This document shows, one piece after another, positions 1 to 54,897 of a stretch of DNA of 64,000 nucleotides. The stretch's first letter is position 1; every line of letters begins with the position of its first letter. The stretch comes from Prosopocoilus inquinatus (taxonomy: Eukaryota > Arthropoda > Insecta > Coleoptera > Lucanidae), in the NCBI GenBank assembly GCA_036172665.1, contig CM069875.1, positions 22,351,806 through 22,415,805 on the forward strand. Reading direction: 5' to 3'. The translations under genes and the position numbers were made by a program. The notes under the pieces were generated by a model that saw nothing but the letters and a program-made list of their open reading frames with translations, was not told the origin of the DNA and did not search any database.

Positions 1-987
1 CGATGTGCTTGGCTAGTAACATATTTGCTGAAGATCAACATCCACGGTTTGCAGACACTTTAATGGACTATGGTTTCTATCTTTTAAATTTTGACTCTAT
101 ACAAGAAAGTGTTAAGATCTATGAAAGAGCTCTGCAAATACGCAAGGAGGTTTTCGAGAAGAACAATATTCTCGTTGCCATAGGACACGAAGACTTAGCT
201 TACGCACAGTACGTTAGTGAATACAGTTCCGGAAATTTTTACTGTCCCAGGTTGGTCAATTTTTTTTGTTTTCTGCCGTTTTAATTTTTCAATTAATAAA
301 TATATTATTTTATGTAGAGACAATGCAGAAAGGGCAATGCGAATAATGGAGAAGCTGTTGCCAAGGGAGCATCTTCTGCTGGCATCAGCAAAAAGAGTCA
401 AGGCTTTAATTTTGGAAGAGATAGCGCTCGACATGCGTGAAGCAAGTAGTCAACAAGCACAAACTGAAATCCTGGAAGAATCAGAAAAATTACACAAAGC
501 AGCACTTGCTCTGTCTCATACTTTTTTTGGGGAAAACAACGTTCAAACAGCTAAACATTACGGCAATTTAGGCCGACTATACCAAACGATGATGTTGTAC
601 AAAGAGGCGGAAAAAATGCATTTACGTGCTATTTCTATTAAGGAACAGTTACTTGGCCCCAGCGACTATGAAGTTGGTTTAAGCCTCGGTCATTTGGCCT
701 CTTTGTATAACTACCACATGAAAAGATACCGTGATGCAGAGAAATTATACTTGCGATCCATCAATATTAGCTTAAATTTATTTGGGGAATCTTATTCAGG
801 ATTGGAATACGATTATAGAGGAATAATCAACGTGTACACTGAATTACATGACTTTGATAGCATGGCTTATTATTCTCAGCTTATGAGGGTGTGGAAGTCG
901 AAAAGGAAAACGCAAAGACGCATCGTTTGCCCCAGTATTCCTCAGCAAGTCAGCAACATAATCGCTAAGTTCGTGGAATTATGTTGA
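1..987 (+). CDS. APPBP2: Amyloid protein-binding protein 2 (APPBP2), C-terminal half, two exons
   Basis: Partial at the left edge. Coding runs 1-250, a 67-bp intron (GT at 251, AG at 316-317), then 318-987 with a stop at 985-987. Joining the exons keeps the frame and gives about 305 residues, the C-terminal half of the ~585-residue family. Tetratricopeptide-type helices fill it, and stretches such as TAKHYGNLGRLYQ, KEQLLG, LGHLASLYNY and FGESYSGLEYDYRG follow vertebrate APPBP2 closely. From family knowledge, APPBP2 (PAT1) binds the cytoplasmic basolateral sorting signal of amyloid precursor protein and is a substrate receptor for CUL2 E3 ubiquitin ligases; the C-terminal TPRs bind partners. 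The upstream exons lie outside the window. The last ~25 residues diverge, which is usual for this family. Confidence 0.93.
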
Positions 988-2178
988 AATGTTGCTTTAA
1001 GACTAGTCATTTTAGACTTAAAACGTAATTTATTTCAATTGGTATAATTCATGCATGCTTTGTATTCGATGTTGAAACCCTTTTAGTCTTTCAGCATGGA
1101 AATATTAATATTAACGAGACAATTATGCTAAGGTAAATCAAGAACTGACTCTTAACTTTATGTTGATATTTGAAAATGTATACAAAGCACAGTGATTATA
1201 TCAAAAGTGATTTTTTGTTTTAGTTTACGAATTTATTATCTGTTATTAAAATGCTTTTTAGAAACAAAAATTATGGACATTTTAATACTGTGTATTTTTG
1301 TGTGTTTCGATAATACTACATAAAATTATTGTATTTATTAAATTTAACATATATTATGCATTATAATTTCATGCGCAGCTTACATTTTATCATTCGTAAT
1401 ATAATTTAAGCTGTGACACTTTGTAAATTTTTGTGATGCATTATTTCATTCTAATTGCACATGCATGAAGCTTTATACTGCATGAAGAGAAAACAATTAC
1501 GACTGTTACTGTTGTCGGTTTCCGAGCCAATAGTATTGTATCTCACTGCATTTATATCATTTAAGCTCTTTAAACAGAAAAATAAGTTCGTACTTAGTAG
1601 GAAAAGGTAGAATTAGTTTGTTTGATCATGTATGCAAAATCTAGGAAGTTCTGTGATTACCAAAACCTAATAGAGAGAATAGGATTTGGCATGTCATTTG
1701 TTGAACTATCTCTCGGCCTTGCTGATTACAAATGCTAATTGCACTTAAAACATTGCAGAATGCGCACAACGACAACATGTAACAACTTTGGTCCAGTAAT
1801 ACTACACTGCCTGAGCATTTACCGTTCTCGCCATTTTTCTCATTTATTTATTTAATAAATTAAAGCACGTTTACAAGCATGATTTAACCACCAAAGGAAA
1901 TAAAATGGTGTTAAATCATAATTATTAAACTAAACGTAATTAAGAGTAAATAATTATCTTGACATTTGTAAAGTTCTTGTAAACATGTTGATCTGTTAAA
2001 TATTTTAGAAATATATCTAATAGTTTTAGTTGTAGAAAATATATGTAAGTACATGTTATTTTAGAATAGACTACCTATAATTTATCAGTGTATATTTTTT
2101 GTGATCTAATTTTTTTAAATAAATCATTGTATTATTAAATGTAACTGTCAACAACATTCAATCTGCTTTTCTTTTTCA
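988..2178 (+). other. APPBP2 3' UTR and convergent gene boundary
   Basis: AT-rich DNA with no supported coding. AATAAA signals on + at 1854-1859 and 2118-2123 are candidate 3' ends for APPBP2. The second lies about 60 bp from the minus-strand poly(A) signal of the gag-like gene (TTTATT at 2179-2184), so the two genes meet tail to tail and their transcripts may overlap. The assignment is inferred from signal positions only. Confidence 0.45.
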
Positions 2179-2200
2179 TTTATTTTAGGAATACAGAAAT

Positions 2201-3446
2201 TTATGTCCGATGCTTTGAGGGCTCCCTGCACAATGCAAAGTCAATCTGTACAGAATTCAGGTGTTGCATGCGAACAGGACAGAATTTGTATGCGGCGTGA
2301 TGCGACTCTCCACACAAACAGCACACCGCATTCTGTCTCGATCTGAGGCATTCCCGTACATCATGTTTTTCACCACATCTCACACATCTCGCGTGATAAG
2401 GACAATGAACTGCAGTGTGCCAAAATCTTTGGCATTTATAACATTGAATGATATCCACGTCTTCACACGACTCGAGGACTACAGGCAAGGTCACGCAGTT
2501 ATAAAAGTTCAAACCTTCATTTAATAATTTTTCCATTGAAGAAGCGCTTTTTACTTCAACTCGAATTGAAGAACCTTCAATCCTTGTGAGGCACAAAGGG
2601 TGGATGCCTTGATATTTAAGCAACAGCTCGACTTCTTTGATTGACACACACCAGGGAATGTCTCTGATCAATGCAGTTTTGTGATACTTTGAGATAGTTT
2701 GCGGAATGTTCCATGCAACAACTGGACTACTGAATATCTTTGACATATTGAGTTTTGTTGCTCGCTCGCAGTCTTCTTCTTTATTAAATGAGACAACTAG
2801 GCCATGCACGGTCTCTCTGAGCTTTATTTTACCGGATATTATTTCTTTTACTGCCTTTTCAAAAGTGGATGCTCTTATTTTCTTCATTTGGTCATCAGTT
2901 GGGAAATACGTGGTGATGTAAATACTTCGAATAGATTTGTCTTCAGATTCATGATTTCCAAAACCTTTGATTTTTTGTGACTTTTTGATGGTTACGTCTT
3001 CCTTGCTGTTGTCACTACTTGAGCTTTTTGACCAGGTCGGATTTGAACTGTCCTCATGAATCTTGATACCCTGCACATAAAAAAAATTATTTTAGAACTT
3101 TTTTCAAAGGGTATAAATACTATTAAATTAAAAACTTGTAAAAATTGTAAAAAGTACCTAAGCCAAATTATTTGCTTAGGGAAAAGCTCTTGATATAATT
3201 ATCTTCATATTTTTCGGAATAAGCATAATCTCTGATCTTTATGTAATAAATTCTGATGTGGGATATCCTACATAAGTTGAGAGAAAATAAATAATTTTAA
3301 CTCACTGGTGACTCTGCGTAATTATATCCTTCAAACTTTTTGCTATTGATTGCTTCTACATTTTCGTGATTGCTGTTTCTTTCATTATTATAAAATAAGC
3401 TGTTATTGCTTGATTCTGCTGAATCTATCCACTTATCTCCATCCAT
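2201..3446 (-). CDS. Gag-like zinc-knuckle protein with an intron (probable domesticated non-LTR gag)
   Basis: Exon 1 is 3446-3306 (ATG at 3446, 47 codons, donor GTGAGT at 3305) and exon 2 is 3070-2201 (acceptor ...TGTGCAG at 3071). Both are phase 0, giving 336 residues. Exon 1 is Asn/Ser/Glu-rich and unrecognised. Exon 2 has an RRM-like stretch (ALIRDIPWCVS..., then a second beta-rich part) followed by clustered C2HC knuckles: CYKCQRFWHTAVHC (CX2CX4HX4C), CVRCGEKHDVREC and CCLCGESHHAAYKFC. That order is the nucleic-acid-binding gag of Jockey/I-type non-LTR retrotransposons. No endonuclease or reverse-transcriptase ORF follows; only 20 bp separate the stop from an AATAAA. A further acceptor-like TTTGCAG just before the ATG (AG at 3453-3452) suggests an upstream 5' UTR exon. 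Splicing, an intact frame and an absent ORF2 argue for a host-co-opted gene, though a truncated insertion with a chance intron is possible. Confidence 0.72.
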
Positions 3447-3451
3447 GCCTT

Positions 3452-5648
3452 CTGCAAACACATGGTTAAACCAATATTAAAAACTTTTCAAAAATACCAT
3501 CAGTATTTATCCGATTTATGGTGAAGAAACTATCAAATGTACTATGATGCTCAATTAAAATGTAATAAAACGAAAGGGGAATGAAAACACACATCTCCAT
3601 TTAATTTTGAATAGAGAAGTTGTGTACTCATTCCCCCATCGTTTTAAAACAATACTCCATCACTGGGTTCGTCTTTTCATAAAATGTATATTATGCAATT
3701 TCATGACTCTTTGCCACTCAGTGTTCTTAAGAATGTGGTTTGCATGTAGGAGTATTGTTTTAAATGAATGTCATAGTACACACATCGAAACAATTTGACG
3801 AATTGACCGTTCAGTTGTAAGAATTATAAGTTTTGTGATTTATAAATTTGTTCCAAAGGAATTGCGTGTTCTTACCGCATTTTAAATTTGCCTTCCACCA
3901 TTACTATTTTTTCCTAGTTTGTACTCAGCGTTGTTAACTTTAAGTGCAAGAAATGCATTCCCTAAAACGAAAAAAAATTACGTCTCCATCAACTTTTTAT
4001 TAAACCTTTTACTAGCTATTCTGTTTAATTTTTTTTTTTAGAAAAAAGTAGATTATTATACAAAAATTATAATACTGACCTATAAGACTTAATACATGTT
4101 CTGGTGATAACTGGTCGTCCACGAAGCCCTCACGACTTTGCCCTTAGCACAGTCTTAAGAGCTGACTGAATTTTTCACAAATGTAATCCAAGGACAAGCG
4201 CATCACTCGAAAGAAATGATTAAAATGTGTCAAATTTTGTTTGCTCAAGCACAGACTTCTTGACGGGGTTTTACGGATGAAATTCCAACATATCGCAAAC
4301 TTTTTTGAATTTGCAAAGATAACCAATTGGTACAATGGAGGAGAAGTATCAATTAAATTACGTCCTTTTTCTTATAGTAAGCAGAATCTTGTTCCATTAA
4401 TTTTCTTTCCAACATTGATAAGAAGCTATTTTTGGAATTTAAAGCTGGCTTGTCACAATAAGGAAAATGTTCTTGCTTTCCAGTGATGTTATCGTTAACG
4501 TAGATTAATGTAGACTTTTCTACGTGTAAACGCCCGGAAAAGTCGATCTTATATTTTATTAGAAATTTTAATTCAATTTGATTACCGCGAGTGGAATTTA
4601 ATCTGTTTTATTTTAAATTAAATTTTCTCAGCCAATAATGATTTGCACAGGAAATACTGTAGTCATAACAATAATAATTAAGATCGCATTACTCGCAGAA
4701 ACCGTGTGACTATATACCCTTCTTCCCCGCCGTGCCAAATTATTATTGAAAGCTTGTTAAAGTTGCGCCCTGATTTAGGCAACCTTTGTAACGCCTGTAT
4801 GATAAGCGAAAGAGGTGGATATTCTTAAGATAAGCATCCAGGCTTCGCGGCAGGAGCGAGTGAACAATTAAATCGGGATCCATCGCTAGGCTCCAAAATG
4901 TCATCCTCCTACCCGTTCAATCATACGGTTGTTTCACCATAGCAGTTTAACCCCCTAGAAACCCCTTCAGGGAAATATGAGTGAGTGTGTGTGTGTTGGT
5001 ACACGCGGAGAACACCAACCTTGGGGCCAGAATTCAATCGAGGAACCCTCAGGCATCCCAAAAGCCTCTGTTACTGCGTTTCGCCTCTGATGAGGTGTTG
5101 TATTTGTTATTTTATATGTCATATAACATTTTCTTTTCAAAATTCCTTTAAACTAAATTTTACTTCCTTTATTTATATATTTTTTTTGTACTTGTTTTTT
5201 TGTTTGTATCAATTTAAGTCAGTGCTCAATAAATCTATTGTAGCACATGAGGCATTTTATTTATTTCTACAGTTTCTGAGCCAAGAGCCCTTGAAAGCCT
5301 TCGATAGAGTTAAAAAGAGTTATTAATTAGTCAGGTAAACAGATTCGGTAATTTCCTAAAAATTACCTGGTGGCAGCAAAATTTTATTATTCAAAATTGT
5401 CTTTAATTCATTTAAAGCAGGCTACCTGCTTGAATAGTAAAGTACAGATAAGGGGTGGAATTTTCTTAGTTTTCTATTTCCCAAAGAAAAACTAACTTAT
5501 ATTATAGAAAGACCTGTTTACATAAGCATCGACCCCTTACAAGAAAATAGATGGAAATTTTTACCATCGATTCCTTTTCAAATTTAATTAGTATTTTTAA
5601 AACAATAGTGTCACGAATTGGTAGGGGCGTATTCCACCCTATAAAGTT
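3452..5648. other. Unassigned intergenic region upstream of the gag-like gene
   Basis: No ORF here has recognisable motifs. 3452-4680 is plain AT-rich DNA. About 4685-5100 is noticeably richer in G+C (a short GT run at 4987-5000 and proline/arginine-like codons in all frames) and could be part of an unrecognised repeat or an untranslated exon; I cannot name it. Confidence 0.3.
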
Positions 5649-7839: not shown

Positions 7840-8454
7840 AATTTAATAAAGAAAACTCTTATTCAAAATTCTTATCCAATAAATCTTATTGAATCAGTAA
7901 TTAAAAATCGTATTAAATACTTACAAAATTCAAATGTCTCTAAAAACATTAGACAAACTTCGAATCATAAATACATATCTTTGCCTTATATTGAACCATT
8001 ACACAATACATTTAAACACATTTTCAAAAAACATAATTTAATTTTAGCCAGTAAATCTGTGATTAATTTAAATTTAATTTTTTCGAATTTAAAAACCAAA
8101 ATACCGAAATTAAAACAACCTAACGTGGTTTATGAAATCAAATGTTCAAATTGTAATTCTGTTTATATAGGTGAAACGAGCCAAAATTTAAAAAAACGTT
8201 TAGACCAACATAAATATCATATTCAAAAAAATAATCAAAATCATTCAATGCTTGTAGAGCATTCATTAGTAAATAATCATAATTTTGATTTTGATAATAC
8301 TGACATTTTGTACAGTGAATCTAATATTTTTAAAAGACGTTTCATAGAAATGTGTAAAATTAAAATGTCTGGAAATTCTATTAATAAACGTACGGACTTT
8401 GAAAATTTAAATGACATATTTTGTAGTTTTTTGGACTCTTTAAACAAGATATAG
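7840..8454 (+). pseudogene. Penelope linker + GIY-YIG endonuclease fragment, inverted copy
   Basis: About 204 residues corresponding to the C-terminal part of the neighbouring minus-strand protein. The single difference I see is Gly for Glu in KIKMS(E/G)NSINKR. It begins at the inversion junction (7838), so it has lost the whole reverse transcriptase. The GIY-YIG signature VYIGETSQNLKKRL and the CSNC pair are intact. The plus-strand reading upstream of 7838 is antisense to the RT and is not real coding. Confidence 0.85.
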
Positions 8455-8473
8455 ATCTGTCAATTAATTAATA

Positions 8474-8515
<42 letters not shown>

Positions 8516-8637
8516 GCTTTAATTAGTTCTCGTTACTTTTATTCCGAACAACTCGTAGTTTAGTTTAAAAATCATGTTACCTATTTGTTTCTCTTGACGA
8601 CTTGTTTCTCTTGACAACTTGTTTATTTACTTTTTTT

Positions 8638-8679
8638 CACTCCTGACGAAGCTATAAATCTATAGCGAAACGTTGAGTG
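8638..8679 (+). ncRNA. Hammerhead ribozyme motif of Penelope terminal repeat (plus copy)
   Basis: Exact reverse complement of the motif at 6085-6126, with the same stems and core (CTGACGA, GAAA, GTT cleavage triplet). It lies about 50 bp inside the outer end of the right arm. Both ends of the composite therefore carry a ribozyme pointing towards the flanking DNA. Confidence 0.78.
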
Positions 8680-8871
8680 TGTTTCCCTTCATTTTTCTGT
8701 CCGGTTTGAGATTAAAAAAACTTTCTACTTAAAATTTTTAAAGTTTACATTACCTAGCCTCCTTGCACTGCAACTCGACCAAATGCCGCCCCCCGGGGAC
8801 CAAATCACAAAGACAATTCACTAATAAGTTTAAAGTAAACATATTGAATACTCCGACATTAAAAATTGATT

Positions 8872-9005
8872 CTAAGGCCCGGTTTTTCAATCACAGGTTA
8901 ACTCTAACTATCAGTTTATTTCCATGGTAACAAGTACGAAGACAATTGTTTCTATGGCAATAAACTGAAGGTTAAAGTTAACTTGTGATTGAAAAACCGG
9001 TCCTA
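8872..9005. mobile_element. MITE with ~50-bp terminal inverted repeats
   Basis: The left end ggcccggtttttcaatcaca pairs with the right end tgtgattgaaaaaccggtcc (with one c/t difference), and pairing continues through the ttaact...cagtttatt segment for about 50 bp. The short interior has no ORF. The flanking taa on both sides may be a 3-bp target duplication. Confidence 0.75.
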
Positions 9006-48366: not shown

Positions 48367-48695
48367 TGTTACGTTTCTAGGGTTTAAAGTTTATTTATTT
48401 AAACGAATAAAACACTCGATAAAAACTTAACCGTAATTTAATAAAGCTTAAAAACTAATTTATTTGTAACAATTTATTTACACACTAAAAGTCTAACTTC
48501 GACGATCGCTGTTAGAATTCGACTGCCTGGTGAGTCAACTCCGGGCGATTTTATATCTACTGCTGGCGTCTGGAAGTCTCGATGCTGGAAGATTCTAGTT
48601 TGCTCGATATAGGCCCCGAACGCGTGACGGCCGATGACACATCGAAGCGGACCGACTTCTTGACGCCTTGCGCTAAGTCAGGTTGGCTCGCCACA
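48367..48695 (-). repeat. 3' LTR of the Gypsy element
   Basis: TGTGGCGAGCC ... AACGTAACA on the minus strand. TATAAAA at 48555-48549, several AATAAA signals in the R/U5 part, and a partial heat-shock-like ggaagattctag at 48587-48598. The pol stop codon lies 18 nt inside this LTR. Confidence 0.93.
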
Positions 48696-51600
48696 CTGCC
48701 CCCTTCTTAGAAACGTTTCGTCTCGAAATGTTCCTGGTGATAGTCTTGAAGGAGGGTGTCGGAATCTACATGCTGGCCCATTCTTGCAACTTCCCGCCTG
48801 GAAGAAGTAACAGTCTACGGTTTTGCTGTTGCTGACTGTTGCCAGTGGGTGGTGGCTGCAGACTAGGACTTCAATTCCCGTTCTGTGGAAGATGACTTCC
48901 AGCATGCTTCGAATTACTCTCCAGTCTAGTCCGTCCAATCCGCAGCCCAATTTGGGGATGGCTAACTTCATCTGATGGGTCTCTATTAGCTGTCTCCTCA
49001 GGCTATATAGGGCTCTCCACATAGTCACATAGTCAGGTTTACCGCTTGATGTCTTCTTAGTGACTAAATAATGCACGTGGCGCCTCCGATCTGCCGTCGA
49101 ATCAATGATCTGCAAGCTCTTGCCTACCACGGGATGCTGTCTTCGTAGCTCCTCGATTTGGCCAAATTTCTTCCTAAACACCTGAGCGATTCCTTTGGAC
49201 ATTTTCAGGTCTTCTGCTACGCAGTGGGCCAGACTGTACTCCAGTGGTACTTTAAAGAGATCTTGTTGCTTCTCCGTGGTCACTCCAAACCGTGCCTTGC
49301 TTCCTTTGGCGTGATGAGACATGAAGGTTTCGAAGTTCACTTCGGAAACTTGCGCCCTTTGTACTGTCCCTTCATCTGCTTCTCCATGGTAAGGGACTAT
49401 CCGGTTGAAGTGGATTACTTTGGGTTTGCCATGGGGGACCTTCTTGATGCGGTAAACGACGTCGTTGATCCGTTTCACCACTTTGTAAGGACCTTCCCAA
49501 GAGGTCTGTAATTTTGGGGAGAGGCCTCGACGTCTTTGGGGGTTATAAAGCCAGACCAGTGCTCCAGGTTGGTATCCCCCGTGTTGAGCGTTGATGTCAT
49601 AGTGCTCCTTCATCCGATCGCTGGCCGTCTGTATATTGTGACGCACTTGGTTGTGGATATCATCCATTTTCCTGCGTAATTCGCTCACGTAATCTTCGTC
49701 GGCAGAGACTTCGCCAGGCTTCACACCAAATTTCAGGTCGCAGGGCAGTCTCGGCTCTCGCCCGAATACCACTTTCGCGGGAGTCTCCCCTGTTGTCTCA
49801 TGAACAGATGAGCGGTATGCCATTAGAAACAGGGGGATGTACGTGTCCCAGTCCCTCTGATGATTGGAAACGACCTTGGACAAATGTCGGTTGATGGTTC
49901 TATTGAACCTTTCCACCATTCCGTCCGACTGTGGGTGGAGTGCAGTTGTTCTAGTTTTTCGTACGCCGAGCAGAGTACACACGTTCTTGAACAAGGCCGA
50001 TTCAAAGTTCCTTCCTTGGTCTGAATGCAGTTCCATAGGTGCACCATACCGACTGATCCATTCCCTGACAAGGACTTCCGCAATAGTGACTGCCTCTTGG
50101 TTAGGTAGGGCGTAAGCTTCAACCCACTTGCTAAAGTAGTCCATTACCACGACGATGTACTTGTTTCCACCATTCGTTTCTGGAAACGGGCCGGCTACAT
50201 CGATGGCAACTCTCTCAAAAGGACTTCCAACGTTGTACTGTCTCATGGGAGCCTTACCCCGCCTGTGGGGACCGTTACTGGCTGCGCAGACTGTACACTT
50301 TCTGCACCAATCCTTCACGTCTTCCTTGCAGTTCACCCAGTAAAATCTTTCGCGCACCTTCTCCATAGTCTTCTTAACTCCCAGATGCCCTCCGGAAGTT
50401 CCATCGTGAAGTTCCCTCAGAACTTCTGGCACCCTATTCTTGGGGATCAGTAACTGTGTCTTCTGTTCCATGCCTTCCTGATTCTCTATGCTTCGTCTCA
50501 GAAGACCACGATCCAACACTATGGAGTCCCACTGCGCCCAGTATGTTTTTACGGACGGTGCACATGGTGCTACCTCTTCCCAGGTAGGCCTCGCGTCCCT
50601 GCTTTTCCATTCTAGCACTAATTTCAAATCCGGGTCGTTCTCCTGGTCTCTTCGCAGTTCTTCGCCTTGCCATTTGTCATCAACAATGGCTGTCCTCGCA
50701 GTCGTGGCTACTTTCTCGTCCAAACGACTACAGTGCTTACAGTCTTCGGCACAGGGTCTTCTCGACAGAGCATCGGCATTTCGATGGCTAGTTCCTGCCC
50801 GATGCTGAATTTCAAAATCGTACTCCTGAAGTCGTTCGATCCATCGTGCAACTTGCCCTTCTGGGTTCTTGAAACGGAGAAGCCATTTTAGAGCGGCGTG
50901 GTCGGTCCTCAGCAGGAAGCGTCTACCATACAAGTACTTGTAGAAGTGTTCTATCGTTTTTACGACGGCTAGCAATTCCCTTCTTGTGACGCAATAGTTT
51001 TGTTCCGGCTTTGATAGGACTTTACTGAAGTAGCCGATCACCTTCTCTTGCCCCTCTTGTATCTGGGAGAGTACGCCACCAATCCCAACGTTGCTAGCAT
51101 CTGTGTCCACGACGAACTTGCCTTCCGGGAGAGGATAACTCAGAATAGGAGCACTAACCAAGTACTGCTTTAGTTGTTCAAAGCCAATTTGACACTGTTG
51201 GTCCCATTCAAATGGACGACCTTCTTCAGTGAGTTTTGTTAACGGCTTAGCAATGTCTGCAAATCCAGGAACGTATCGCCGATAGTAAGTGCACAGGCCA
51301 AGGAAACTCCTTATTTGGTGTTTATTTGTGGGAGTTGGCCAGTCTTTTACCACCTGAATCTTCACAGGGTCCACGGCGATTCCATTTCCATTAACAATGT
51401 GCCCCAGGTAATTCACTTCCTTCTGGAACAGGTGACACTTCTTGAGGCTAAGCTTTAGTCCAGCTCCGCGAAGCCGCTGGAACACTCCTTCCAGGTTCCT
51501 TAGGTGGTCGTCGAACGTCTTTCCCACGACAATTATGCCGTCAAGGTACACCATGCACGTTGTCCAGGACAGACCTTTCAGAACCGTCTCCATTAACCTC

Positions 51601-52799
51601 TCGAATGTCGCTGGGGCATTACATAACCCGAATGGCATCACTGTGAATTGCCACAGACCCATACCAATGGAAAACGCCGTCTTTTCTCGATCTTCGGGCG
51701 CCAGCTCCACTTGCCAATATCCACTCTTTAAGTCCAAAGTTGAGAAGATCTTTGAGCCGGCCAGGGTGTCCAGGGTATCATCAATCCGGGGCAAGGGATA
51801 GCTGTCCTTCTTGGTGACATTATTGAGTAACCGGTAGTCTACACAGAACCTGGTGGACCCATCCTTCTTCTTCACAAGCACTACTGGTGACGCCCACGGG
51901 CTGCTTGATGGTTCTATTACATTATCCTTTTCCATCTCGCGAATAATGCGTTCCGCTTCCTCACGCTTCGCCAACGGTAATCGCCTTGGAGCTTGACGGA
52001 TAGGTCTTTCTTCTCCAGTCTCTATTTTGTGTTTCACGACATCAGTTCTTCCCTTGGATCCATTTTCTACCTCAAATACATCTTGATAGCGGCCGATCAG
52101 ATTCTTTGCTTTTGTCTTCTGGTCTGGAGTCAATTCCTGGGCTGTTGACATAACCATTTCCCATAATTTCTTTGGGACTTTCGCTTCTGGCACGTTTGTT
52201 TCAAGTTGCCGGGAGATGGAGGACACCATGGTGCAGCTTCCCAAGATTGTTCCTTTCTTGATATTGACAGAGAAACAATTGACGTTCATCAGGCGGACAG
52301 GTACTTCCTTCTTCGCCGTCAACAACATTTTCCCAACGAGGACTCCTCTTCCAATCCTTTGATCATCAGTATTAGGTTCAACCATAATGACTTGCCCATC
52401 TTGAAAAACACCGTCCAGTTTTGCGTCGACGATAACCTCAGTCCTGCTGGGTAATACAACGTCTTCAGCGAGGACTACTCGAGCGGCCACGTCCCCTCGT
52501 TGATGTAGAACCAACTCCTCATTATTGACCGCCATCACGCCACGCTTTAAGTCCAATTGGAACCCATGGGCACACATGACGTCCATGCCCAAAATTGCCT
52601 CGTCCTCTATATCTGCCACCAGTGCACGGTGTTTTATTGGAGTTGAACCAATGGTGATGATAACCTCTACTTCACCGTGGACAGTTGCTGATGTTCCAGT
52701 TGCAGTTTTCAGTTTCCACTTGGTCGGCTCGGTGCGTCCAGATGACTTAATGACGTCGGGTCTTAGGATGGTCTTCGTCGCACCCGTATCCAACAACAT
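48678..52799 (-). CDS. pol: Gypsy Pol: protease, RT, RNase H, integrase, macrodomain, CCCH finger
   Basis: 1373 residues, no internal stop. Protease LLDTGATKTIL (D4); RT 270-450 with LDLKSGYW (D355) and, at 418-421, YLDG where YxDD is expected; RNase H with DTDAS (D566) and RTDHAALKWL; integrase HHCC (H798, H805, C832, C835) and DD35E core D867/D927/E963; GPY/F-like WEGPYKVVKRINDVVYRI (1101-1118). Residues ~1177-1316 form a TARG1/OARD1-like macrodomain, and C1330-X7-C1338-X5-C1344-X3-H1348 a CCCH finger. Gag's TAA and another TAA two codons before this ATG are in the same frame, 75 nt apart, so expression needs reinitiation, readthrough or another start. The stop lies inside the 3' LTR. The RT lesion (GGC at 51539-51537, one change from an Asp codon) should abolish polymerisation by this copy. 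Confidence 0.93.
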   Translation of the reverse strand: MLLDTGATKTILRPDVIKSSGRTEPTKWKLKTATGTSATVHGEVEVIITIGSTPIKHRALVADIEDEAILGMDVMCAHGFQLDLKRGVMAVNNEELVLHQRGDVAARVVLAEDVVLPSRTEVIVDAKLDGVFQDGQVIMVEPNTDDQRIGRGVLVGKMLLTAKKEVPVRLMNVNCFSVNIKKGTILGSCTMVSSISRQLETNVPEAKVPKKLWEMVMSTAQELTPDQKTKAKNLIGRYQDVFEVENGSKGRTDVVKHKIETGEERPIRQAPRRLPLAKREEAERIIREMEKDNVIEPSSSPWASPVVLVKKKDGSTRFCVDYRLLNNVTKKDSYPLPRIDDTLDTLAGSKIFSTLDLKSGYWQVELAPEDREKTAFSIGMGLWQFTVMPFGLCNAPATFERLMETVLKGLSWTTCMVYLDGIIVVGKTFDDHLRNLEGVFQRLRGAGLKLSLKKCHLFQKEVNYLGHIVNGNGIAVDPVKIQVVKDWPTPTNKHQIRSFLGLCTYYRRYVPGFADIAKPLTKLTEEGRPFEWDQQCQIGFEQLKQYLVSAPILSYPLPEGKFVVDTDASNVGIGGVLSQIQEGQEKVIGYFSKVLSKPEQNYCVTRRELLAVVKTIEHFYKYLYGRRFLLRTDHAALKWLLRFKNPEGQVARWIERLQEYDFEIQHRAGTSHRNADALSRRPCAEDCKHCSRLDEKVATTARTAIVDDKWQGEELRRDQENDPDLKLVLEWKSRDARPTWEEVAPCAPSVKTYWAQWDSIVLDRGLLRRSIENQEGMEQKTQLLIPKNRVPEVLRELHDGTSGGHLGVKKTMEKVRERFYWVNCKEDVKDWCRKCTVCAASNGPHRRGKAPMRQYNVGSPFERVAIDVAGPFPETNGGNKYIVVVMDYFSKWVEAYALPNQEAVTIAEVLVREWISRYGAPMELHSDQGRNFESALFKNVCTLLGVRKTRTTALHPQSDGMVERFNRTINRHLSKVVSNHQRDWDTYIPLFLMAYRSSVHETTGETPAKVVFGREPRLPCDLKFGVKPGEVSADEDYVSELRRKMDDIHNQVRHNIQTASDRMKEHYDINAQHGGYQPGALVWLYNPQRRRGLSPKLQTSWEGPYKVVKRINDVVYRIKKVPHGKPKVIHFNRIVPYHGEADEGTVQRAQVSEVNFETFMSHHAKGSKARFGVTTEKQQDLFKVPLEYSLAHCVAEDLKMSKGIAQVFRKKFGQIEELRRQHPVVGKSLQIIDSTADRRRHVHYLVTKKTSSGKPDYVTMWRALYSLRRQLIETHQMKLAIPKLGCGLDGLDWRVIRSMLEVIFHRTGIEVLVCSHHPLATVSNSKTVDCYFFQAGSCKNGPACRFRHPPSRLSPGTFRDETFLRRGQCGEPT
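48696..48707 (-). promoter_or_regulatory. Polypurine tract
   Basis: AGAAGGGGGCAG directly abuts the 3' LTR, the position of the plus-strand primer in LTR retrotransposons. It is inside the pol coding sequence. Confidence 0.7.
48756..49271 (-). other. TARG1/OARD1-like macrodomain plus CCCH zinc-finger module of Pol
   Basis: Part of the pol frame. It starts with KQQDLFKVPLEYSLAHCVAE, then DLKMSKGIAQVFRKKFG (ADP-ribose-binding N-terminal helix/loop), HYLVTKK (K1248/K1249) and PKLGCGLDGLDW (D1289). In human TARG1, the terminal ADP-ribose glycohydrolase, the catalytic residues are a Lys in the equivalent TKK and the Asp of GCGLD; both are kept here. The finger CYFFQAGSC ... CRFRH is of the RNA-binding CCCH class. 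The module replaces the short C-terminal tail seen after GPY/F in ordinary Gypsy Pol. Function in the element is inferred only. Confidence 0.85.
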
Positions 52800-52874
52800 A
52801 TATTACTTGGTTGGCTTTCGTCTTTGGGGGCCTTTGAATACGGGTCGACGTTTGCCCCTCTGCACCGACCCGGC

Positions 52875-54467
52875 TTAGTTTAACTGTGGCTTCCTTGGAT
52901 CCTGTCTGGGCTTTGGACATCGCCTGCGAACATGTCCTTCCTCCTGGCAATTCCAACAAACCAGCGGCCTCTTCTGCTTGAAGACCTGTTCCACAATGCG
53001 GCGAACATCCTCGGCGGTGGCATACTCCCTGGCTCGCTCCTTTATAGTAGATCCCACCTTGGCGTTAGCGGATTCTTCCTCTTCTTCCTCTTGGAAGTCC
53101 ATAGCCGCTCGCACCTTGACATGCCCTCTTGAGACTCGTCTCGCTGCTTCAAATTCCAAGGCATAAGCTAATGCGTTCTTGGACGTCTTCGGATGGGTCA
53201 TTCTCAATGCCTGCTGGTTGTCTGGGTCACGGATTCCATCTATGAAGGTCTGCACCGTCAAACATTTGAGGAATTCAACAGGAGCTGTGGGATATGCCAA
53301 CTGGGCCAGACGCGCAACGTCTGCTTCGAATTCCTGAAGACTTTCTCCGGATTTCTGACAGCGATTCCTCAACTGCGCATGGTATACCTCGGTCAGATGG
53401 GCCTGTCCGTAACGCATTTCCATCCTATTCACAAGCTTGTCGAAGTCTTCTTGTTCCTCTGGCGGCATCGTCTGTAGCACATCGATAGCGTCCCCTCTCA
53501 AGGCCACAATTAACGAAGTGGCTTTTTCGCTGGCCGTCCATCTGTTCGCCTTTGCTGCTGCTTCGAACTGTTTGAAGTAGTTGGGCCAAGAAGACTTTCC
53601 ATCGAACGTTGGTGGTTTTATCTTCAGTTTAGAATTTTCTGCTGGTCCTTCCACAATTCGGGTTTCATTATTTTCTAGTACTTCTACTGGTGGCTGATCC
53701 CCGAACACTCGCAACCCCGCCATGATTTGTTCCAGATTTTTGATTTTATTATCCTGCTGGAATATTATTTCTTCCACATTTTCTTGAAGGTTTCTTGTTT
53801 CTTCCGATATTTTTACCACTAGTTTATCTTCGAGTCCTTTCGTCTGTTCTAGAAATTCACCCTTCAAATTTCCGGACTGTTCTAGAAGTTTCTCGTCGAA
53901 ATTTCTGGATTGCTCTAGAAATTTCTCGTCTAAGTCTCTAGATTGTTCCAACAATTTATTTTGTAATTTGTCGAAATTTCCAGATTGTTCTAGAAGCTTC
54001 TCCTCTAAATTTCTGGATTGTTCTTGAAGCTTCTCGTCCAAATTTCTGGATTGTTCTCGAAGTTCGTCCTTGAAATTTCCAGATTGTTCTAGAAGCTTCT
54101 CCTCTAAATTTCTGGATTGTTCTTGAAGCTTCTCTAAATTTCCAGACTGTTCTAGAAACTTCTCGTCCAAATTTCTGGATTGTTCTCGAAGTTCGTCCTT
54201 GAAATTTCCAGATTGTTCTCGAAGTTCATCCTTGAAATTTCTGGATTGTTCTCGAAGTTCATCTTTCAAGATTTTATTAAAATCGACGGGACCACACGAA
54301 ATTTCGAAAAGGAACGTCTCTGGATCTTCACCAGCTGTCAACAAATCGGATCGGAGACGCTGTTGAAGTGCGCCTTTGAAACCACAGGTTTCTAACTCTC
54401 GTTCTTCCAATTCGGTTTTTAATTCGGCCACTTTTAAGTCTTTCAACAACACTTTTCTCGTAGCCAT
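52875..54467 (-). CDS. gag: Gypsy Gag with SAP-like N-terminus and hendecad coiled coil
   Basis: 530 residues, ATG at 54467, TAA at 52877-52875. Residues ~8-42 (LKVAELKTELEERELETCGF ... LQQRLRSDL) match a SAP DNA-binding motif. Residues ~70-225 are near-identical 11-residue units of the type LREQSRNFKDE and LLEQSGNFDK, predicting a long right-handed coiled coil, encoded by 33-bp DNA repeats. Then comes a retrotransposon gag capsid region (WPNYFKQFEAAAKANRW, LQEFEADVARLAQLAYP) and a zinc knuckle C504-X2-C507-X4-H512-X4-C517. The product should form the particle and bind RNA. No internal stop. The SAP-like motif and coiled coil are unusual additions for a Gypsy Gag. Confidence 0.93.
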   Translation of the reverse strand: MATRKVLLKDLKVAELKTELEERELETCGFKGALQQRLRSDLLTAGEDPETFLFEISCGPVDFNKILKDELREQSRNFKDELREQSGNFKDELREQSRNLDEKFLEQSGNLEKLQEQSRNLEEKLLEQSGNFKDELREQSRNLDEKLQEQSRNLEEKLLEQSGNFDKLQNKLLEQSRDLDEKFLEQSRNFDEKLLEQSGNLKGEFLEQTKGLEDKLVVKISEETRNLQENVEEIIFQQDNKIKNLEQIMAGLRVFGDQPPVEVLENNETRIVEGPAENSKLKIKPPTFDGKSSWPNYFKQFEAAAKANRWTASEKATSLIVALRGDAIDVLQTMPPEEQEDFDKLVNRMEMRYGQAHLTEVYHAQLRNRCQKSGESLQEFEADVARLAQLAYPTAPVEFLKCLTVQTFIDGIRDPDNQQALRMTHPKTSKNALAYALEFEAARRVSRGHVKVRAAMDFQEEEEEESANAKVGSTIKERAREYATAEDVRRIVEQVFKQKRPLVCWNCQEEGHVRRRCPKPRQDPRKPQLN

Positions 54468-54551
54468 TATTATTTTTTTTTTCTATACTGTACTTATTTA
54501 ATAATCTGATTAAATTTAATTTACTTTAAATTGTTTATTTATTTGCACAAA

Positions 54552-54567
54552 CCCCACACCGACACCA
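54552..54567 (-). promoter_or_regulatory. Candidate primer-binding site
   Basis: TGGTGTCGGTGTGGGG begins one base after the 5' LTR. TGG would pair with the CCA tail of a tRNA; the tRNA identity cannot be fixed from this window. Confidence 0.6.
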
Positions 54568-54568
54568 C

Positions 54569-54897
54569 TGTTACGTTTCTAGGGTTTAAAGTTTATTTAT
54601 TTAAACGAATAAAACACTCGATAAAAACTTAACCGTAATTTAATAAAGCTTAAAAACTAATTTATTTGTAACAATTTATTTACACACTAAAAGTCTAACT
54701 TCGACGATCGCTGTTAGAATTCGACTGCCTGGTGAGTCAACTCCGGGCGATTTTATATCTACTGCTGGCGTCTGGAAGTCTCGATGCTGGAAGATTCTAG
54801 TTTGCTCGATATAGGCCCCGAACGCGTGACGGCCGATGACACATCGAAGCGGACCGACTTCTTGACGCCTTGCGCTAAGTCAGGTTGGCTCGCCACA
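54569..54897 (-). repeat. 5' LTR of the Gypsy element
   Basis: Reads the same as the 3' LTR throughout. Its TATAAAA is at 54757-54751 and would drive the element transcript towards gag at 54467. The LTR end AACGTAACA is followed after 1 nt by the candidate primer-binding site. Confidence 0.93.

Follow-up and report, generated by a model that had tools for sequence, protein, structure and literature searches.

Macrodomains are counter-defence tools of some RNA viruses. The enzyme TARG1/OARD1 (C6orf130) cleaves ADP-ribose from protein Glu/Asp and from nucleic-acid phosphate ends, its proposed catalytic residues being Lys84 and Asp125, and such ADP-ribose can be added in vitro by human PARP1-3 and others, according to the account in PMC9411070. 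Among retroelements, additional macro-domain open reading frames (ORFs) have been described in Epsilon-like endogenous retrovirus (ERV) sequences of ray-finned fish (Basta et al. 2009, as cited in PMC4977317). In this report we focused on a Ty3/Gypsy retrotransposon of Prosopocoilus inquinatus, found in 64,000 nucleotides of contig CM069875.1 (assembly GCA_036172665.1, positions 22,351,806 to 22,415,805, forward strand; this whole stretch is called the window below), and performed a computational analysis of the C-terminal end of its Pol polyprotein, which by sequence and predicted fold is a TARG1/OARD1-type macrodomain followed by a CCCH zinc finger. This led to a pattern that goes beyond the one-copy view of an earlier note on the same DNA: TARG1-type macrodomains occupy several Pol positions in several Gypsy lineages.

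Identity of the C-terminal module

The earlier note had proposed that the pol frame carries a TARG1-like macrodomain and a CCCH finger, with the catalytic Lys and Asp in place, and both proposals are confirmed by sequence match, predicted fold and many copies. The frame, which like all features of the element lies on the minus strand and is given in window positions, holds SLAHCVAEDLKMSKGIAQVF, HYLVTKK, PKLGCGLDGLDW and the CX7CX5CX3H finger CYFFQAGSCKNGPACRFRH. Five human OARD1/TARG1 sequences from solved structures match the last 210 Pol residues in phmmer (E 5.4e-28 to 1.2e-27), the best alignment (E 5.4e-28) spanning tail residues 11-150, and the next macrodomain by sequence is 5m3i, DarG by its title (E 8.2e-06). 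The macrodomain corresponds to pol residues 1178-1314 (48861..49271), as placed by this match, an AlphaFold2 model and Foldseek. The model, built from 40 aligned sequences, has a mean predicted local distance difference test score (pLDDT) of 83.6, with macrodomain blocks at 90-98 and the finger at 57-67. With this predicted model as the query, eight TARG1/C6orf130 chains head the Foldseek matches, the best with E 1.3e-16, a template modelling (TM) score by target of 0.96 and a root-mean-square deviation of 1.1 Å. The hidden Markov model searches that had been proposed alongside the structure search gave a split result: Pfam Macro stays below its cut-off in the window tail (16.6 bits versus 22, E 0.0079), so that an annotation made with Pfam alone would overlook this domain, and zf-CCCH (PF00642) passes (27.3 bits versus 20.5). 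Residues K1249 (codon 49056..49058) and D1290 (48933..48935) align with Lys84/Asp125, the proposed catalytic pair of TARG1. With this pair intact, we predict the macrodomain to act as an ADP-ribosyl hydrolase. The finger, at pol 1331-1349 (48756..48812) by Pfam and alignment, fits the C-x7/8-C-x5-C-x3-H pattern of its family and resembles the fingers of CPSF4, best the fourth (E 1.2e-14 for the whole chain, 0.0038 for the fourth finger alone), although it is so short that this likeness is no proof of descent.

The module is common in the genome from which it comes. Searching the 649,647,856-base assembly gave 1,453 candidates, 150 of which were scored and are the basis of all counts from this search. 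All 150, the window copy included, match the window tail (E 1.3e-134 to 3.4e-131), an internal stop is present in three, the open frames that contain the match are up to 1981 residues long, and identity to the window copy is 97-99% among the remaining scored ones. Lys, Asp and finger are kept in each of the 14 other window-family copies that we examined (L002-L008, which are the best-ranked seven, with L026, L033 and L035-L039). In protein databases, the full-length Pol finds 47 proteins that match its tail, and the 37 best database proteins from this search share the module with 50-59% identity and 76-100% coverage. The tail alone finds 123 proteins (120 listed). Window-type tails come from sources named Aromia, Molorchus, Brassicogethes, Gonioctena, Exocentrus, Callosobruchus and Acanthoscelides, among others. 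We take these seven to be beetles, and window-type fusions in the database are mostly from beetles where a source is named. The search for further fused copies, another check proposed in the earlier note, thus found them both in this genome and outside it, and the scored copies together with the database relatives exclude a chance juxtaposition or a peculiarity of one copy. With the TARG1-like match and fold described above, neither of the results that the note had named as refuting its proposal was obtained.

Positions in Pol, conservation and function

Twenty stretches of the same genome were fetched, 19 of which combine a macrodomain with Gypsy parts, some in broken copies, while the remaining stretch, L034, is probably a host gene. 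This genome alone contains three arrangements across four reverse transcriptase (RT) lineages. In the first, integrase is followed by macrodomain and CCCH finger (the first frame of L026, and L033, L035, L036, L037, L038 and L039); in the second, integrase is followed by a macrodomain without finger (L022 and L030); and in the third, the macrodomain precedes RT, both in L021, L023, L024, L029 and L040 and, in a separate RT lineage, in L025, the second frame of L026 and L031. L027 and L028 have protease followed by macrodomain, with no RT found, and in L032 the macrodomain precedes a piece of RT. Protease lies ahead of the macrodomain in L021, L023, L024 and L040, and by a weak match in L025, and was not found there in L029, the second frame of L026 or L031. 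Pfam agrees with the domain order on the four frames to which it was applied (L021, L022, L023 and the second of L026); it reports Macro above cut-off in the first three and not in the last, in which the TARG1 match has E 1.6e-30, compared with 3.9e-39 in L021 and 2.4e-42 in L022. Database proteins extend the range: the macrodomain lies between RNase H and integrase in P0041, follows RNase H in P0147 (a piece too short for integrase), precedes protease in P0042 (found there by search, not by Pfam), and follows integrase without a finger in P0038 and P0046. That the finger is the main function, binding RNA or a polyadenylation factor with the macrodomain as its structural partner, would suit its likeness to CPSF4 and the retention of each of its four ligands in most rows of the window-type alignment described below. 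We nevertheless find this improbable, because the macrodomain is present without a Pfam finger match in L021, L022, P0042 and P0046 (the reverse case was not searched for).

The window-type alignment comprises 77 rows: besides the window, it includes 76 proteins selected for a position after integrase, for a finger or for their place in the tree. The catalytic Lys is retained in 73 of the 74 rows without a gap at that position, and the Asp in 73 of 76. Over 36 rows less than 80% identical, the macrodomain reaches a mean pairwise identity of 0.52 and the finger one of 0.44, compared with 0.29 and 0.20 for the linkers. Outside the window family, four pairs of macrodomains from elements of this genome give ratios of nonsynonymous to synonymous change (dN/dS) of 0.13-0.23 at dS 0.39-1.81, and we conclude that related element macrodomains are under purifying selection. 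These observations bear on whether the module could be a neutral passenger, acquired by readthrough or transduction and kept only through the youth of the element. Since the scored copies are nearly identical, young copies say little on selection, which leaves some room for a passenger, but the identity shared with the 37 best database proteins, the better conservation of the module than of its linkers and the dN/dS of related macrodomains make this explanation, already disfavoured, very improbable indeed.

The phylogenetic setting was drawn from RT neighbours, the best 120 of 7,951 passing proteins. A macrodomain follows integrase in 19 of these, the plain domain order with an end no more than 30 residues after the integrase end domain is seen in 54, and the remaining 47 are partial or compound proteins or have longer tails. 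In a quick RT-RNase H tree of 64 rows, which includes 30 of the 54 plain relatives, the window type falls into a single group, for which the Shimodaira-Hasegawa-like approximate likelihood-ratio test (SH-aLRT) value is 98. Three proteins labelled as bacterial or fungal (P0028, Klebsiella; P0031 and P0200, Erysiphe) are not taken as signs of such an origin, their kinship to insect elements pointing to contamination from insects. Another Gypsy Pol (P0212) is publicly labelled "replicase [Ips erranti-like virus 3]".

We consider it likely, if far from certain, that the TARG1-type macrodomain of the window Pol is an active hydrolase that strips host-added ADP-ribose from the proteins or nucleic acids of the element. 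The host would restrict the element by adding ADP-ribose to these molecules, the macrodomain would be made and packaged with Pol, and within Pol it would remove the ADP-ribose and so protect the element. A role of ADP-ribosylation in retrotransposon control is in keeping with the fly, in which, as described in PMC7712786, five of the eight mobile elements that changed significantly without PARP-1 rose, and a further ten showed an upward tendency that did not reach significance. Several points weigh against this reading. The authors of the fly study themselves name indirect routes, so that the effect may be indirect (PMC7712786). The Asp is lost in P0066, P0179 and P0184, where the active-site loops are altered and P0179 lacks the Lys as well, and P0073, which lies outside the 77-row set in the same macrodomain clade, lacks both residues; hydrolysis is therefore dispensable in some lineages. 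P0071, P0072 and P0075, also of this clade, show no finger. Two plain members, P0178 and P0189, fall within the window-type RT group without a macrodomain, either through loss or because their records are incomplete. The selection data are also uneven: of the eight pairs outside the window family, the four not cited above comprise one that is saturated, one without synonymous change and two that are near-identical (0.37 and 0.80), and six window-family pairs (dS 0.011-0.080) are too close for their dN/dS of about 0.26-0.55 to be firm. A single ancient capture, discussed below, would likewise count against the fuller form of this reading.

The main competing function is that of a reader, in which the macrodomain is fused to integrase and guides integration to ADP-ribosylated chromatin, as chromodomains do, with hydrolysis incidental. 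Chromodomains form an extra module after integrase in chromoviruses, the same place at which the window family has its macrodomain, directly after the integrase C-terminal domain, and a subclade that kept the residues of the fold framework while losing the catalytic ones is what a reader might look like. Other lineages, however, have the macrodomain ahead of RT or of protease, or between RNase H and integrase, and the catalytic pair, which binding alone would not need, is kept in nearly all window-type rows. We regard a reader as unlikely: a domain kept after integrase, before protease or between enzymes leads us to prefer a place-independent catalytic role over pure tethering of integrase. 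Starting from hydrolysis, a wider scenario can be drawn, which is tentative and as a whole rather doubtful. Insects would ADP-ribosylate LTR (long terminal repeat) retrotransposons, and Gypsy elements would have answered repeatedly with TARG1-type erasers at varied Pol positions; in the window family the eraser, adjoining integrase, would clear ADP-ribose from cDNA ends or integration complexes ahead of strand transfer, and the finger would hold it on element RNA. The presence of TARG1-type macrodomains at different positions in the Pol of several Gypsy lineages would point to ADP-ribosylation as a general restriction of retrotransposons in insects. These elements also supply many natural variants of a TARG1 enzyme, including the subclade without catalytic residues.

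Origin of the macrodomain and structure of the element

The earlier note also held that the element had captured a host ADP-ribose eraser. The likely host gene L034 contains two tandem TARG1-like macrodomains (positions 448-5263 of that stretch), each split after GIAVxFR by a GT-AG intron, whereas the element macrodomains are uninterrupted, which makes capture from the host plausible; a possible third, degenerate macrodomain was seen by eye at 8345-8890 of the same stretch. An ancestral macrodomain derived from a host TARG1 gene is thus a plausible part of that proposal. In the macrodomain tree (75 rows, 22 rows of a first tree having been left out, two Danio rows among them), the window type groups at 100/96, L034 stands beside Ceutorhynchus and Aromia proteins, and the other element macrodomains are spread over several places with no supported host sister gene. 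One ancient capture, after which the macrodomain was transferred between Gypsy lineages through recombination or by relocation, perhaps with the same function throughout, would replace repeated captures from the host. We hold this to be a realistic possibility, though not the expected one. Placing 32 element macrodomains on one side of a branch and 12 host-like ones on the other is not rejected by the approximately unbiased (AU) test (p 0.22, or 0.09 with P0038), and the window clade, the rows L026 and L031 with the macrodomain before RT, and P0041 cluster at 96/88. Against it, the free tree scatters the element macrodomains with a log-likelihood higher than that of the constrained tree by 17.5 (34.3 with P0038), and in the RT tree the window clade has elements without macrodomain as its closest relatives (such kin being sampled only in the RT neighbourhood of the window). 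The several positions are thus established, and repeated capture is a possibility only.

The pair L021 and L023 has macrodomains 67-72% identical and adjoining stretches 45% identical. A macrodomain swap between them, considered because dS is 1.34 in the macrodomain and 0.45 in RT-RNase H, was no longer favoured once a scan of the frames showed that a conserved RT stretch has high dS to either side of it; this low-dS stretch between saturated flanks may itself reflect recombination or gene conversion. TARG1-like macrodomains were also sought in a viral collection. The window tail found no relative there, and a scan with profile A1 found a relative encoded in 127 stretches, 80 of which were kept (28-42% identity, contigs of about 4 to 394 kb); these, L041-L120, place such domains on many contigs that are probably phages. 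A predicted RNA-virus polyprotein (P0040) with methyltransferase, helicase and RNA-dependent RNA polymerase carries a macrodomain 45% identical to that of the window.

The element itself is a young Ty3/Gypsy retrotransposon with identical LTRs. It is complete, about 6.5 kb long (48367..54897) and flanked on both sides by the target duplication GTAT, and its 329-bp LTRs, of the TG...CA type, lie at 54569..54897 (5') and 48367..48695 (3') and compare with no mismatch. Its LTRs and target duplication, and its Gypsy domain order, are those of Ty3/Gypsy elements. The gag frame (52875..54467, 530 residues) has a zinc knuckle, CWNCQEEGHVRRRC, and repeated EQSRNF-type units, both recognized by eye; at its start (53800-54467), a SAP-like stretch was seen by eye with these tandem repeats, and relatives have PF02037. 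The pol frame, 1374 residues plus stop from stop to stop (48678..52802), ends within the 3' LTR. Pfam gives the order protease, RT, RNase H, integrase and p58/GPY-type end, ahead of macrodomain and finger, with RVT_1 at pol 310-470 (51393..51875), RNase H at 559-661 (50820..51128), the zinc-binding and core domains of integrase at 786-954 (49941..50447) and the p58/GPY-type C-terminal domain at 1104-1135 (49398..49493). There is no env between pol and the 3' LTR, which the pol frame itself enters. The presumed polypurine tract, so assigned by position (48699..48708), lies within the pol frame. Together with the first bases of the LTR it codes for RRGQC, the recurrent C-terminal sequence, whose conservation need therefore not be a trait of the protein. 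In the window copy gag and pol share one frame, divided by in-frame stops at 52803-52877; other copies have one long frame, and many frames are of about 1,480 residues. By eye, the flanks of 48367-54897 look like parts of a same-strand gene for a hAT-type transposase, inside which the element would lie.

Comparison with known systems

The earlier note knew of no described retrotransposon with this module. Among the papers listed in searches of the open-access literature, which mostly lacks subscription papers so that a published report may exist, none showed a macrodomain in a Gypsy Pol. For retroelements at large the statement has to be softened, the one relevant precedent recognized being the macro-domain ORFs of fish ERVs, as cited in PMC4977317. 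These are likewise retroelements with a macro domain and, going by their description there, are set apart by having it in separate ORFs, where here it is a domain inside Gypsy Pol. Chromoviruses share an extra module after integrase with the window family, which has a macrodomain and CCCH finger in that place and no Chromo family among Pfam matches to E 1 in the window Pol; unlike chromoviruses, other Gypsy lineages carry their module, the macrodomain, away from the integrase C-terminus. The macrodomains of coronaviruses and alphaviruses have the same fold within a replication polyprotein and an inferred role in counter-defence, although their fold match to the window domain (E 2e-7 and weaker) falls short of that of TARG1 (1.3e-16). 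By fold, DarG of DarTG ranks directly behind TARG1 (E 2.2e-10, at most 25% identity) and, as described in PMC9411070, is without the Lys/Asp pair, of which it keeps only the Lys. The closest counterpart is thus TARG1/OARD1, which gives the best match in sequence and in fold and shares the equivalents of Lys84 and Asp125, but which in man is a stand-alone cellular enzyme, whereas here it has its counterpart as a domain of a retrotransposon polyprotein.
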